IMG/VR virus record: IMGVR_UViG_3300025131_000443
Span: 1-23,513 of that record
Length of the DNA stretch: 23,513 bases
DNA from: a virus
Direction: 5' to 3' (one strand)
How positions within the stretch are numbered: position 1 is the first letter of the stretch; every line of letters starts with the position of its first letter. Below the pieces are notes generated by a model. It saw only the letters and a program-made list of their open reading frames with translations, had not been told where the DNA came from and ran no database searches. The position numbers were made by a program, and so were the translations under genes. Of the stretch, positions 145 through 13,883 are shown piece after piece.

Positions 145-154
145 TAGTATAATA
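145..154 (+). promoter_or_regulatory. Candidate late promoter box TAGTATAATA (copy 1)
   Basis: The box contains a perfect TATAAT at 148-153 and lies in the 86-base gap before the first structural gene. At the 17-base spacing the -35 position (125-130) reads ATAAAT, nothing like TTGACA. The same ten bases recur at 2061-2070 before the tail tube gene. A start about 7 bases downstream would put a small GGAC/GTCC hairpin (162-175, six-base loop) near the 5' end of the mRNA. Recognition by the phage sigma factor at 11,901-12,416 is inference. Confidence 0.5.
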
Positions 155-210
155 TATAGAAGGACATTTTCGTCCCCCAAGTTAAGATAAAGAACAGGAG
201 GAATTTAAGT

Positions 211-2060: not shown

Positions 2061-2070
2061 TAGTATAATA
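2061..2070 (+). promoter_or_regulatory. Candidate late promoter box TAGTATAATA (copy 2)
   Basis: This box is identical over ten bases to the one at 145-154 and lies in the only sizeable gap inside the structural module, 32 bases before the tail tube ATG. TATAAT is at 2064-2069. The matching -35 position (2041-2046, inside the preceding gene) reads TTAGAA, only three of six bases of TTGACA. Placement just before the tail tube gene, usually among the most abundant virion proteins, fits an extra promoter. Confidence 0.5.
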
Positions 2071-2101: not shown

Positions 2102-4024
2102 ATGGCAATTTATCGAGCAGATCAAGCGGTTGTGACGTTTGCCGCTGAAGCTGGACAAGGCGGTTATCCTGAAGGTGCTACCTTTTCTAATCCAGTAAAT
2201 GGAAGTACTATAGACGGGGCAATAAATCCGGGCGATAGAACGGTAACAGTTGATTCTGATTCCATGCCTACTACAGGTAATAGTGCAGTTTTTATTGTTG
2301 TTGGAAATAGCGATGTTTCTACACCCGCAAATGCTCCTAAAGGCCCAAAAGAAGTACGAAAAATTGTAGCTGGTCTTGGCACTACATCTTTAACTGTGGA
2401 TACTCCATTTGGATTTGCTCATAGTGATGGAGCAGCTTGCGCTTATCTTACTGCCCAAAATGACGGAACCGCAGACGCTGTTGTAGCAGATGCAGGAACT
2501 GCCGCCACTACAGGAAAATATATTACTCAATTACCCGGTGTTTATGACGCTGTTGATGTACCTGACCCTGAACAAGCCTTTGAACCTAGATATATCCTTG
2601 GTGGATTAACCAACCGTAACTTTTATGAGATGTATAAAGGTCAGGAAACATTATCAGGATCAATTGGCAGTATGGTATTACTAAATGGATTCCCATTAAG
2701 GTTTCCTATTGGATCAGTTCAAACATTGCCTGTACATAATCAGACATTGGCTGGTGCAGCAGGAGGTAATCAAGTTGGTTGGGGTATTTCTAATGTAGGA
2801 GGGGCATGGGTAATCAATGGAGCGACTAAAAAAGGAGATGTATTTGTTCGTTTAGATGCTAGTGGTACTAAAGCTTTACCTATGGGTACGTATCTTGTTT
2901 TTGGATTTGCTTCTGATGCTACTCAATCCGCAATTCAAGGAATTTGTGATGGAGATTTTACAGAGATTACATCAACTACTACATATGAAGTACGACAGGT
3001 AGTATCTAACCACACGAGTACTTCTGATTATTCCGTACAGTTAAATGCTCCCTTACATTTCGCTCATGACGATAATGAAAAAGTTGCTTCTGTTAGTGAT
3101 GCCTTAGACGAAACTGATATAGCTACTGATGGTGCATTTATACATAAAATACAGGAGACTACTTCCTTAGACTCAATGACATGGAACGTTGCAATTCCTG
3201 ATTCTGACGGCACAAACATATGGCAAAGACGTTATGTTGGTGGAAAGGTAGGCAGTCTATCATTAAGTGCTGAAGAAGGTGGACTATTAACAGCTGGTTG
3301 GGATGGGGTACAATTTATAGATATGGTACACAATGTTAAAACTCATTTTAGTTTAGCTACAACACAAAAAATGATGCCTAGATATACAGCTATGCATGAA
3401 ATATTATCAACTAATGTTGGACGACAGGTACAAACTGTTGGTAGTGATGCTGTTACATACGCTCGTCCAAATACCGCTCCATACTATTTTTCTAATGGAA
3501 GTGTTCAATTATATGGAGCAACTGGAGATCAAACAATGGCGAGAGTAAGAAGCTTTGCGTTAAATGTTTCTAATGGTGAGGAAGCTAGATATTACATTCG
3601 TACTCAACATGAAGGGCGGAGATCACCATTTGAGATTTTTGAAGGTAATAGAGAATATACTATGTCTGCTACTATAGCAACTCCAGATTCTGCTGATCAA
3701 GGGGCTGTAAATAGTGAAACTGGATCAGTTGATCTTTGGAGAGAATTACTATTAGCTGGAGATTATCGAGGTACTGTTGCACAAGGAATGCGAGGTTTTG
3801 GAATACGGTTAACTTTTACAAGAGATAATGCTGGAAGTGGGGATTTTATTAGGATAGTTATACCAAATGATGGTACAGCTACTGAGGGAAGTAATGAACA
3901 AGGAGCATTTATACGATCTGCTCCGCATAATATAGGATCAGATAATCCAATTCAAGCAGATGCGGATATACAATTTAGAAGTATGAAAGTAGAAATTAAG
4001 GACGGAGAACCAATGTATCCGTAA
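2102..4024 (+). CDS. Major tail tube protein, enlarged by a duplicated beta domain
   Basis: This 640-residue protein has a GGGAGG ribosome site and its own candidate promoter. It is almost entirely beta-type, rich in Gly, Ser, Thr and Asp, and lies directly before the tail assembly chaperones, which is the normal place for the tail tube gene. Residues about 345-640 look like the tube fold, with long alternating strands such as KVGSLSLSAEEGG and ARVRSFALNVSNG. Typical tube proteins are 150-350 residues, so this one is about twice as long. The extra length comes largely from two related segments, about 43-115 and 243-332. These share GD-x3-V-x-x-D near the start, EVR in the middle (84-86 and 296-298) and FAH-x-D near the end (105-109 and 320-324). 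They may form surface domains on the tail. A role as a major tail protein with decoration domains is inferred. Confidence 0.65.
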   Translation: MAIYRADQAVVTFAAEAGQGGYPEGATFSNPVNGSTIDGAINPGDRTVTVDSDSMPTTGNSAVFIVVGNSDVSTPANAPKGPKEVRKIVAGLGTTSLTVDTPFGFAHSDGAACAYLTAQNDGTADAVVADAGTAATTGKYITQLPGVYDAVDVPDPEQAFEPRYILGGLTNRNFYEMYKGQETLSGSIGSMVLLNGFPLRFPIGSVQTLPVHNQTLAGAAGGNQVGWGISNVGGAWVINGATKKGDVFVRLDASGTKALPMGTYLVFGFASDATQSAIQGICDGDFTEITSTTTYEVRQVVSNHTSTSDYSVQLNAPLHFAHDDNEKVASVSDALDETDIATDGAFIHKIQETTSLDSMTWNVAIPDSDGTNIWQRRYVGGKVGSLSLSAEEGGLLTAGWDGVQFIDMVHNVKTHFSLATTQKMMPRYTAMHEILSTNVGRQVQTVGSDAVTYARPNTAPYYFSNGSVQLYGATGDQTMARVRSFALNVSNGEEARYYIRTQHEGRRSPFEIFEGNREYTMSATIATPDSADQGAVNSETGSVDLWRELLLAGDYRGTVAQGMRGFGIRLTFTRDNAGSGDFIRIVIPNDGTATEGSNEQGAFIRSAPHNIGSDNPIQADADIQFRSMKVEIKDGEPMYP

Positions 4025-10801: not shown

Positions 10802-11179
10802 ATGAAAGCTAAAAATAAGATTAAACGTCTTAGACAGAAAAACCCCTTTATGAAGATGCCAGAGATTGCTTTTACGGTGGGGGTTAATAGACAATACGTT
10901 CATGAGGTCTTGACAAAAGCTGGATTATCAACTATAATACCATCATACCGAAGCGGAACATACTGTAAGATATGTAATAAAAATACTAAATATAAAACAT
11001 TATTATGTTCTAAAGAATGTAAAATTAAATATTATAATTTAGAAGTAACGTGTTCTTTTTGTAAGAAAAGATTCTTACGTAATAAAAGAAAATTACAATA
11101 CAGTTATAGAATGGGTTATCAATATATTCATTGTAGTAAAAAGTGTTACAACAAACGAAGAAATCAGGAATTAGCTTAA
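10802..11179 (+). CDS. Helix-turn-helix protein with two treble-clef-type zinc fingers
   Basis: This 125-residue, very basic protein has a helix-turn-helix at residues about 17-42 (MPEIAFTVGVNRQYVHEVL). Two Cys4 fingers follow: C55, C58, C69, C73 and C84, C87, C111, C115, each ending in C-S-K-x-C. This arrangement suggests a DNA-binding protein. The fingers resemble those found with phage homing endonucleases, but I see no HNH or GIY-YIG catalytic motif. The ATG has no ribosome site, only AATTAATAATTA before it, so expression may be weak or coupled to the gene 12 bases upstream. A perfect consensus promoter lies inside the coding sequence (10,910-10,938). A transcription regulator at the early/late boundary is plausible but unproven. 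Confidence 0.65.
   Translation: MKAKNKIKRLRQKNPFMKMPEIAFTVGVNRQYVHEVLTKAGLSTIIPSYRSGTYCKICNKNTKYKTLLCSKECKIKYYNLEVTCSFCKKRFLRNKRKLQYSYRMGYQYIHCSKKCYNKRRNQELA
10910..10938 (+). promoter_or_regulatory. Perfect sigma70-type promoter inside a coding sequence
   Basis: TTGACA at 10,910-10,915 and TATAAT at 10,933-10,938 are separated by exactly 17 bases, a full match to the bacterial housekeeping consensus. It lies within codons 37-46 of the zinc-finger gene and points toward Hsp20, the sigma factor and the replication genes. The expected start is near 10,945. It would read the second half of the zinc-finger gene and then the early region. Whether it is used cannot be seen. Confidence 0.65.
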
Positions 11180-11197: not shown

Positions 11198-11227
11198 TTG
11201 ACAAAGGTATTTTTCTCATGGTATACT
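11198..11227 (+). promoter_or_regulatory. Strong sigma70-type promoter for hsp20 and early genes
   Basis: TTGACA at 11,198-11,203, an 18-base spacer, and TATACT at 11,222-11,227 lie in the 97-base gap before Hsp20. The spacer ends in TGG, giving an extended -10 (TG at 11,219-11,220). The expected start is near 11,234. The short inverted repeat ATACG/CGTAT (11,232-11,236 and 11,249-11,253) overlaps the expected start and could be an operator, though it is only five base pairs. This is probably the main promoter for the operon that includes the phage sigma factor. Confidence 0.75.
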
Positions 11228-11276: not shown

Positions 11277-11714
11277 ATGACACTATCACGAAGATTTGAT
11301 CGAAGTTTACGTGAGTTATCTAACGTAAACGATATATTTGGGATGGATTTACTCCGTCCTTTCAGAACCTATCCTAATTATCAGGGTATAAACATAGATG
11401 TAGTAGAGACTGAAGCTGATTTTACACTAAAAGTTCCACTACCGGGATTAACGAGAGAAGATATTAGCGTATCTATTACTAATGGTACTTTAGAAATTAA
11501 TGCTGAAGCTAAAACAGAAGCTTCTGATGAAACTAAGTATGTGTATAGAGGTGTTTCAACATCTAAGTTTAATAAAACACTACCTAGACTAGAGGAACAG
11601 TTCAATATTGATCCCAAAAAAATAAAAGCCACTTATATTAATGGGGTTTTGGGGATTGTAATGCCTAAAAAGAAGGTTTCAACTGTAAAAACTATTGATA
11701 TTGAGATAGAATGA
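11277..11714 (+). CDS. hsp20: Small heat shock protein (Hsp20/alpha-crystallin family)
   Basis: This 145-residue protein has the full Hsp20 plan. A short N-terminal arm (1-36) is followed by an alpha-crystallin domain (about 37-131) containing VPLPGLTREDISVSI, YRGVSTSKFN and the family signature NGVL (122-125). An Ile-x-Ile tail (I140, I142, I144) docks between subunits. Hsp20 is an ATP-independent holdase that keeps unfolding proteins soluble. Phage copies, best known from cyanophages, may help virion protein folding or protect the infected cell. It starts after GGAGG, has its own strong promoter, and overlaps the next gene by four bases (ATGA). Confidence in the family is high. Its target proteins are unknown. 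Confidence 0.93.
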   Translation: MTLSRRFDRSLRELSNVNDIFGMDLLRPFRTYPNYQGINIDVVETEADFTLKVPLPGLTREDISVSITNGTLEINAEAKTEASDETKYVYRGVSTSKFNKTLPRLEEQFNIDPKKIKATYINGVLGIVMPKKKVSTVKTIDIEIE

Positions 11715-11900: not shown

Positions 11901-12416
11901 ATGGAAATTAATAACGACCTTATACAACAATGGGAGCCTAAGATTCAAAAGATGCTACAAGGTACAAGTATCATTGGAATGGATCGAGATGACATCGCCC
12001 AAGAATTAAGGATCGCTATTATGAGAGCCGCCAATGGATTTGACGAGGATAAGGGAGTAGTATTTCATACGTATTTACATACAGCAATGGTAAATACTAT
12101 TCGTACACTAATAACTAAAGCACAAAAGATGTTGAACCTTTCAAGTTTAGAACAGGAATTAAGTTTTAGAGATTCAGAAAATGATAATATTGGGGACGCT
12201 CTATTAATAGATGAGTCCGATACAATGATGAGCGATATAGAATTAGAAGGATTGTTTATAGCTAACAAGTTAAGTTATTCCGAACAGTCTTTCGTTAGGT
12301 TAAGATTAGAAGGAATGACAATGGAAGAGATTACTGATGATTTAGAGATGTCTGCGTATAGAGTACGAGAATCTTTAAGAGTAAAGTTTAGAGGATTAAA
12401 AGATGAGACGGCGTAA
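11901..12416 (+). CDS. Phage RNA polymerase sigma factor (small sigma70-family)
   Basis: This 171-residue protein has the two conserved sigma domains. Region 2 spans about 28-74, with DRDDIAQELRIAI, then the FDEDKG-x3-F-x-TY element and MVNTIRTLI, which in the family bind core polymerase and melt the -10 box. Region 4 spans about 124-166, a helix-turn-helix with SEQSFVRLRLEGMTMEEI and YRVRESLRVKF, which normally reads the -35 box. The linker (80-120) is acidic, and regions 1 and 3 are absent, as in small alternative sigma factors. It lies in the early operon, so its product would appear before late transcription. The likely job is to redirect host RNA polymerase to late phage promoters such as the boxes at 145 and 2061. 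Confidence 0.85.
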   Translation: MEINNDLIQQWEPKIQKMLQGTSIIGMDRDDIAQELRIAIMRAANGFDEDKGVVFHTYLHTAMVNTIRTLITKAQKMLNLSSLEQELSFRDSENDNIGDALLIDESDTMMSDIELEGLFIANKLSYSEQSFVRLRLEGMTMEEITDDLEMSAYRVRESLRVKFRGLKDETA

Positions 12417-12630
12417 GTTAGGTCGAAAACCCGGATTATTTCGCTTGACAAAACCCACAACGTCATGTAGAATCATCAGCGTAGAAAAGGAAGACGTAGT
12501 TATTTTGGGGGAGTTCGCTTCAATCGAAGAAGCAAAAACATATCTTATAAATTTAAAAGGTATAGTGGGGCGAACTCTCCACATTATTACTACTATAGAC
12601 AATAGAGCAGTTCATACTGAGAGGAGGTGA
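12403..12630 (+). CDS. Small basic protein of unknown function
   Basis: This 75-residue protein overlaps the end of the sigma factor gene by 14 bases, with GAGGA seven bases before its ATG. The first 15 residues are very basic (RRRKLGRKPG). The remainder alternates strands and one helix (CRIISVEKEDVVILG, then SIEEAKTYLINL), a compact alpha/beta fold. I recognise no family. An antisense frame of 68 residues covers most of it but lacks a ribosome site, and all sure genes are on the plus strand. A candidate promoter lies inside (12,445-12,473). Its stop codon overlaps the ribosome site of the helicase gene, which suggests coupled translation. Confidence 0.6.
   Translation: MRRRKLGRKPGLFRLTKPTTSCRIISVEKEDVVILGEFASIEEAKTYLINLKGIVGRTLHIITTIDNRAVHTERR
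12445..12473 (+). promoter_or_regulatory. Sigma70-type promoter ahead of the replication genes
   Basis: TTGACA at 12,445-12,450, a 17-base spacer and TAGAAT at 12,468-12,473 give 11 of 12 consensus bases at the optimal spacing. It lies inside the 75-residue gene and would start RNA near 12,480, about 155 bases before the helicase start codon. Like the promoter at 10,910, it is embedded in coding sequence and points at early genes. Confidence 0.55.
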
Positions 12631-12635
12631 TGATA

Positions 12636-13883
12636 ATGGAAAGTTATGATTACATAGAGTCTGGATTAATATTCGGACTAAACGATATTAAAACATTACA
12701 ACAATTTAAATACCAAGCAGAGGATTTTAAAACACATGGAGATGCGTATAGATTCTTAGTTCAATACTTTGATAAATATGCTGAGTTCCCAAAACCTGAA
12801 ACGTTAGTAGACAATTATCCTGCGTTAGATGCTTCTGCTCAAATGTTACATTTCGATTATGCGATAGACACATTTAAAAAACAAATTTTATTTAGGCGGA
12901 TTGTAAACACTTTTAACATAAATAAAGAGTTAATTCAAGAAGAACCTAAACGAGCGTTAAGTAGAATTATGGATAATTTATCAGATATTGAAGTTTTGTA
13001 TGATGAGGACATTACTCATTATAATAGAAATGCTTCAAATCGTTTTGATGCTATGAAAGATAGGCAGAAACAACGACAAATGGGGGACGGTCTTATGGGT
13101 ATACCTACTCCATTATCTATGATAAATCAGACAGGAGTAGGATGGATGCCGGGAGAATTAATCTCTCTGTATGCTAGACCTACTGTAGGAAAGACTTGGA
13201 TGTGTATACAAGCAGCTGCAACAGCAGTATTAAAAGGATATAGAACCTTGTTAATATCTACAGAAATGCCGATAGATGCTATTAGCTTACGTATGGATGT
13301 AGTTATGGCATCTATGATGGGATATGAGTTATCACATAAAGCGTTACGAAATGGCGATTCATGTAATGAAGATGACTACCAAAGATTTCTCGATGACATA
13401 AATGAACAACAGTTGTTAATTTGTGACCATATTGAAGGTTCAGGTAGTTTTACAGTTGATGCGATTGCGGGATTAGTGAGAAAACATTCTCCTGATTTTG
13501 TAGTTGTAGACGGTGTTTACTTAGTAAGTACAGGTATGAAGAAAGCTATGTGGGAACAATCCCACGCTGTTTTCTATGGGATGAAAAATCTTTGTTTATC
13601 GACAAATACTCCCATATTTGTATCTACTCAAGCAACACGAGAAGCCGCAGCAAATATGTATGTACCACCTAGACCTGATCAAGTAGCATTTGGGGATGCA
13701 TTAATAAGAGCGTCAGATGTAGTAATGGCAATGTCTCTTGTTGAAGAACAGGATGATAGACGAATTATACAGTATCAAAAGTATAGAGATGGTCAATTAC
13801 CTGTTGACGCATCTATGATGATGTGGGATGTCGATAAAGGACATATAGAAGAAACAGAGTTTGTAACAGGAGATTTATTTTAA
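12636..13883 (+). CDS. dnaB: Replicative DNA helicase, DnaB-like
   Basis: This protein (415 residues from the chosen ATG) unwinds DNA at the phage fork as a ring-shaped ATPase. An N-terminal helical domain (about 1-150) precedes a RecA-fold motor. Walker A is ARPTVGKT with K186 and T187 (Ala replaces the usual first Gly), Walker B is VVVDG with D292, and the QATREAAA motif and KYRDG near the end match DnaB. I chose ATG 12,636 because AGGAGG (12,622-12,627) lies eight bases upstream. The GTG at 12,627 and ATG at 12,630 are too close to it. The primase follows two genes on, so they probably act together. At 415 residues it is near the usual DnaB size. Confidence 0.88.
   Translation: MESYDYIESGLIFGLNDIKTLQQFKYQAEDFKTHGDAYRFLVQYFDKYAEFPKPETLVDNYPALDASAQMLHFDYAIDTFKKQILFRRIVNTFNINKELIQEEPKRALSRIMDNLSDIEVLYDEDITHYNRNASNRFDAMKDRQKQRQMGDGLMGIPTPLSMINQTGVGWMPGELISLYARPTVGKTWMCIQAAATAVLKGYRTLLISTEMPIDAISLRMDVVMASMMGYELSHKALRNGDSCNEDDYQRFLDDINEQQLLICDHIEGSGSFTVDAIAGLVRKHSPDFVVVDGVYLVSTGMKKAMWEQSHAVFYGMKNLCLSTNTPIFVSTQATREAAANMYVPPRPDQVAFGDALIRASDVVMAMSLVEEQDDRRIIQYQKYRDGQLPVDASMMMWDVDKGHIEETEFVTGDLF

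Follow-up and report, generated by a model that had tools for sequence, protein, structure and literature searches.

The late sigma factor of phage T4, gp55, directs transcription from TATAAATA late promoters that have no -35 element (PMC1524935). In phiEco32, gp36 serves promoters with the motif tAATGTATAtA, as do its relatives in SU10 and 7-11, and the early promoters are of the sigma70 type (PMC4331800, PMC4281155, PMC3594737). Promoters have been mapped in the P100-like Listeria phage CKA15, where early ones combine TTGACTT with TGN-TATWCT, a phage sigma factor is expressed in mid infection, and late ones read TGCTATATTA without a -35 (PMC12282133). Putative late promoters of a phage sigma factor, likewise without a conserved -35, have been described in Staphylococcus kayvirus 812 (PMC6445280). 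Given the precedents of T4, phiEco32, kayvirus 812 and CKA15, the kind of system considered below is already known: in the virus group studied here, a short -10-like motif precedes structural genes with no conserved -35, which would place the boxes among the late promoters that a phage sigma factor reads by a -10 element alone.

Each of these systems nevertheless differs from the present one. As in T4, a single phage sigma factor would act on the host core enzyme at a -10-only late promoter that ends with A at -6 (PMC1524935), but gp55 works together with gp33 and the gp45 clamp, whereas the present family has kept a sigma4-like domain as part of the sigma chain itself. The resemblance to phiEco32 lies in the use of host sigma70 early and, for middle and late genes, of a phage sigma factor whose motif is -10-like and short, some nine bases long; the motif is different, however, and we saw no middle class of boxes in the present group. 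The late motif of CKA15 retains TG at -15/-14 where the boxes described here have A at -14 and G at -13, and both CKA15 and kayvirus 812 belong to other phage lineages. Bacterial sigma factors of the SigH/ECF type share the two-domain build of sigma2 plus sigma4 (SigH model 9a4r, TIGR02937), but the present promoters lack a GGAAC-type or other confirmed -35. Profile comparison with hhalign gave a probability of 1% and no convincing similarity for gp36, and of 3% for gp55, where one 39-residue stretch in region 2.3-2.4 is 31% identical, short of a confident homologue. The late motif of phiEco32, TAATGTATA, is not the one that stands out here, the top intergenic 9-mer being AGTATAATA, and a literature search for the latter motif returned nothing relevant. 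By these comparisons the sigma factor does not detectably belong to the gp55 or gp36 families, and its motif is its own.

The DNA analysed, a stretch of 23.5 kb (the window; G000 in our numbering), has almost all of its genes on the + strand. From left to right it carries tail genes, Hsp20, the sigma factor, DnaB, primase, PolA and RecA, with terminase at the right end. Around the sigma gene we find the following features.

10802..11179, + strand: conserved protein of 125 aa; Cys pairs, possible HTH start; homologue in 52 records; rival candidate regulator
10910..10938, + strand: TTGACA-N17-TATAAT, 12/12, inside ORF 10802-11179; found in no records but the window and one near-identical to it, of uncertain role
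11198..11227, + strand: TTGACA-N18-TATACT, 11/12, upstream of the Hsp20-sigma operon
11277..11714, + strand: Hsp20 small heat-shock protein (Pfam HSP20, 4e-16), opens the early operon to which sigma belongs
11901..12416, + strand: phage sigma factor gene; sigma2 at residues about 4-81, linker 82-106, sigma4-like HTH about 126-170
12445..12473, + strand: TTGACA-N17-TAGAAT, 11/12, inside ORF 12403-12630, upstream of the DnaB-type helicase gene
12627..13883, + strand: DnaB-type helicase, first replication gene downstream of sigma

ORF 11901-12416 is a genuine gene of the sigma70 family; it has a good ribosome-binding site and encodes 171 aa. Pfam Sigma70_r2 (PF04542) matches residues 7-76 (E 7.4e-10; 38.9 bits against a cut-off of 24), TIGR02937, the sigma70-ECF superfamily model, exceeds its curated cut-off over residues 6-159, and the sigma factor family PHROG_351 matches at 1.5e-11. 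The preliminary description had credited the protein with clear regions 2 and 4. This holds for region 2; region 4 is weak in the window sequence taken by itself, where Sigma70_r4 stays under its cut-off (E 0.097), and emerges as a sigma4-like HTH in the family alignment and in the structure model. That model, built from 29 relatives, has helices in both domains (mean pLDDT 75.7) and a loose linker, residues 82-106 being modelled with low confidence and poorly conserved. Its best match among solved structures is the B. subtilis SigH model 9a4r; against the SigH equivalog model the ORF scores 32.2 bits where 294.8 are needed, and it lies far under every equivalog cut-off. Invariant residues of the family are concentrated in sigma2, where conservation peaks. 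The residues of the sigma4 recognition helix are fairly conserved as well, so that sigma4 could still touch DNA.

No genuine relative of the sigma factor from a phage came up in INPHARED. One hit of 31% identity, MT837064 (MT837064.1, locus L251), carries the label of a human-gut phage, yet the genes around the hit resemble bacterial housekeeping or chromosome genes, so that the protein is probably a bacterial sigma factor. A search of genome contigs for a host with sigma and DnaB profiles yielded no relative. A scan of IMG/VR with the window sigma, in contrast, recovered 75 loci, 42-100% identical, and box counts were made in 49 of the virus records that hold them.

The three promoters of host type near the early genes, described at the outset as near-perfect, match consensus at 12/12, 11/12 and 11/12 positions, and the class extends to the relatives. 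TTGAC-N17..19-TANNNT lies upstream of Hsp20 in 12 of the 14 records that have this gene, and a host-type promoter, in the relatives of the form TTGAC-N18-TANNNT, stands within 160 nt upstream of DnaB in 34 of 60. T at -15 and G at -14 each occur in 40 of 59 host-type promoters. We did not count a TTGACA kept in the primase gene ahead of an ssb-like gene (34 records): it lies inside conserved coding sequence and so probably reflects coding conservation. The 10802-11179 gene, which has no family match over cut-off, precedes the early promoter in most relatives.

At the other end of the window stand two boxes of a different kind.

145..154, + strand: late-promoter box TAGTATAATA, 56 nt upstream of the gene at 211 (head-tail region); box in 7/16 records at the orthologous gene
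162..175, + strand: small hairpin GGAC-attttc-GTCC, immediately downstream of box 1 and within the presumed late leader
2061..2070, + strand: late-promoter box TAGTATAATA, 31 nt upstream of the major-tail-type gene at 2102
2102..4024, + strand: tail gene of major-tail type downstream of box 2 (phrog_290 minor tail, 1.6e-7)

As had been proposed, these are identical boxes before structural genes with no -35 to speak of: the best match is 3/6 for box 1 and an ordinary 4/6 for box 2 (TAGAAA, 16-nt spacer), for which reason a generic scan scores box 2 at 10/12. They are the only exact copies of TAGTATAATA in the 23.5 kb. Note that one-mismatch matches in the window number 6, against 6.4 by chance, so that the window proves little by itself and it is the relatives that decide.

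Across the 49 records TAGTATAATA occurs 43 times, in 26 records, compared to three occurrences of the reversed pattern. With records oriented by gene strand, 42 of the 43 are on the coding strand, most of them 18-56 nt upstream of structural genes, although some boxes lie inside TerL or RNR coding sequence or before g162. An unbiased count of intergenic k-mers ranks AGTATAATA and k-mers overlapping it first among the 8-, 9- and 10-mers (46 forward versus one reverse); TGTATAATA is not enriched in this count, nor do the top k-mers contain a third promoter class that the sigma factor might serve. Counts anchored on genes, made in records with upstream sequence and at sites not picked by motif, give the same answer. 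The 100 nt ahead of the major-tail gene contain AGTATAAT in 29 of 30 records (20 of 21 when redundancy is removed), where shuffled upstream sequences lead one to expect about 0.9%; for the pre-portal gene the figure is 13 of 27 records, and 7 of 16 records carry the box at the head-tail gene. The box is absent ahead of sigma, DnaB, primase, PolA, RecA and most other genes of replication.

These boxes, with A-14 and G-13, carry no TGN extension. Nor do they have a TTGACA: at 32 non-redundant late sites its best match averages 3.09/6, and at random upstream positions 2.99. Lacking both TTGACA and TG extension, the late class is not merely a weak form of the host promoter. A weak, degenerate purine-rich -35 near -32, present at 20 of 35 late boxes in the discovery set, was found at 2 of 8 held-out boxes (P 0.21) and was dropped.

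Comparing sequences in this way reveals two promoter classes that are separated by the class of gene they precede. With functions of structural genes assigned from PHROGs and Pfam, late boxes stand before structural versus replication genes in the ratio 33/2 and host-type promoters in the ratio 3/21 (Fisher p = 8e-11, non-redundant), early and late being labels given by gene function alone. The same layout is seen in two near-complete records, G051 (81 kb) and G054 (82 kb): host-type promoters, many with TGN, precede most gene groups of an early module of small genes, and late boxes lie mostly upstream of virion operons. The contrast of host-type and other promoters that the preliminary description drew from one stretch, with sigma in an early-type operon, is thus reproduced in dozens of diverged relatives and in the near-complete records of 81-82 kb, and the search it advised for further boxes before late genes, carried out in near-complete relatives, places them mostly before virion operons.

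Local exceptions exist. About 28 nt upstream of the head-tail gene of G034 a canonical TTGACA-N17-TATAAT replaces the late box, and in G051 (43594/43614) and G054 (34598/34618) one gene beside the head-tail genes is preceded by both a late box and a host-type promoter, arranged in tandem. Hairpins of varying sequence follow the late box by a few bases at the same place in the window, G003, G012 and G019, and others do so before the g103 gene in G027 and G035, which makes two virion genes in all; perhaps such leader hairpins protect the 5' end of the mRNA.

Which factor reads the boxes? Each of the seven long records contains exactly one Sigma70_r2 protein, and of the loci anchored on DnaB, all 41 whose upstream DNA is long enough have sigma beside DnaB; the seven without sigma all have fewer than 400 bases upstream. 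Keeping in mind that every record was gathered via sigma or the adjoining DnaB, and that the DnaB scan revealed no sigma-free relative where sequence sufficed, any core gene would co-occur with the boxes equally well. The link between sigma and box is drawn by elimination, from there being one sigma factor per genome: the phage sigma is the presumed reader, and the 10802-11179 protein is another candidate.

We consider it probable that these viruses undergo a two-stage switch, from host sigma70 early to the phage sigma factor at AGTATAATA late boxes. Host RNA polymerase with host sigma70 would first read TTGAC-N17/18-(TGN)TANNNT promoters before the early genes, one of which would drive the operon that runs from Hsp20 through a TM protein gene and sigma to DnaB. 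The phage sigma would then bind the host core polymerase and direct it to AGTATAATA boxes before the virion operons, its sigma2 domain recognising a nine-base -10 element (A-14 G-13 TATAAT A-6) and its sigma4 domain probably docking on the core enzyme without reading a -35 sequence. That the boxes mark transcription starts, are used late and are read by the phage sigma, with a sigma4 that does not read sequence, we infer from conservation, position and gene content. Such a switch would give this phage group, for which we found no cultured relative, a promoter code and a map of gene timing, and the early and late operons of new contigs of the group could be told apart from sequence alone.

There are other scenarios that might explain the boxes. 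Imagine that the late promoters were read by host sigma70 with the help of a phage activator, for example the 10802-11179 protein, or of an anti-sigma factor that blocks contact with the -35, and that the phage sigma served other promoters. Since the core hexamer of the box, TATAAT, equals the host consensus, host sigma might indeed use the box with an activator; a conserved candidate regulator is encoded near sigma, and some relatives have a host-type promoter and a late box in tandem before one gene. However, the late boxes have neither TTGACA nor a TGN extension, which most host-type promoters of the group do have, and the top intergenic k-mers offer no third promoter class on which the phage sigma could act. 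We regard this scenario as unlikely. Considerably less probable still is that the boxes are conserved elements of some other kind, such as sites of transcript processing or regulator binding. What we have is conservation of sequence, and hairpins do occur in the leaders after some boxes; yet the boxes are strand-specific, lie 18-56 nt before start codons and contain a -10 hexamer, and in one relative the same gene has a promoter of host type where the box would otherwise stand.

That AT-rich DNA should have produced the matches by chance, next to an unrelated sigma gene, might be argued from the window, where one-mismatch matches are at chance level, but is next to impossible in view of the relatives, with 43 occurrences against three and with 29 of 30 orthologous tail genes against an expected 0.9%. 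The reversed-pattern, opposite-strand and gene-anchored controls rule out a chance origin.

Returning to recognition by the phage sigma, natural variation in sigma4 bears on how the box might be read. The turn of the sigma4 HTH is interrupted in several lineages by insertions that measure 5-37 aa; two are Cys-rich.

G042: Cys-rich insertion, 25 aa
G031, G032 and G037: Cys-rich insertion, 31 aa
G041, G043 and G044: insertion, 37 aa
G045: insertion, 5 aa

Despite the split HTH, the major-tail box of the insertion-bearing lineages is still GAGTATAATA, AAGTATAATA or TAGTATAATA in members where it is readable, which is suggestive of -10-only recognition; together with the conservation of sigma2, the insertions suggest that promoter choice is made by sigma2 alone. 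A stronger version, which we find slightly less than evenly probable, is that sigma4 in this family is a docking module only and sigma2 reading AGTATAATA decides wholly, hence the tolerance in several lineages of HTH splits of 25-37 aa, Cys-rich or other, with the box unchanged, in a virus group with bacterial hosts and with portal and capsid genes like those of haloarchaeal viruses. Natural sigma4 insertions alongside a constant box provide a testable case of the minimum that a sigma factor needs for promoter choice. Loci L050 and L069 are among the sigma genes with insertions in the sigma4 HTH.

The nearest named relatives of the portal (L101:10231-12195) and the major capsid protein (L102:274-1608) are the haloarchaeal tailed viruses HCTV-1 and HVTV-1, at 27-30% identity, in contrast to promoters and a sigma factor that point to bacterial hosts. 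A ribonucleotide reductase gene lies between terminase and portal (L101:7788-9725), and L101:12182-15931 encodes a protein of 1250 aa with eukaryote-type topoisomerase I and poly(A) polymerase/HD domains.
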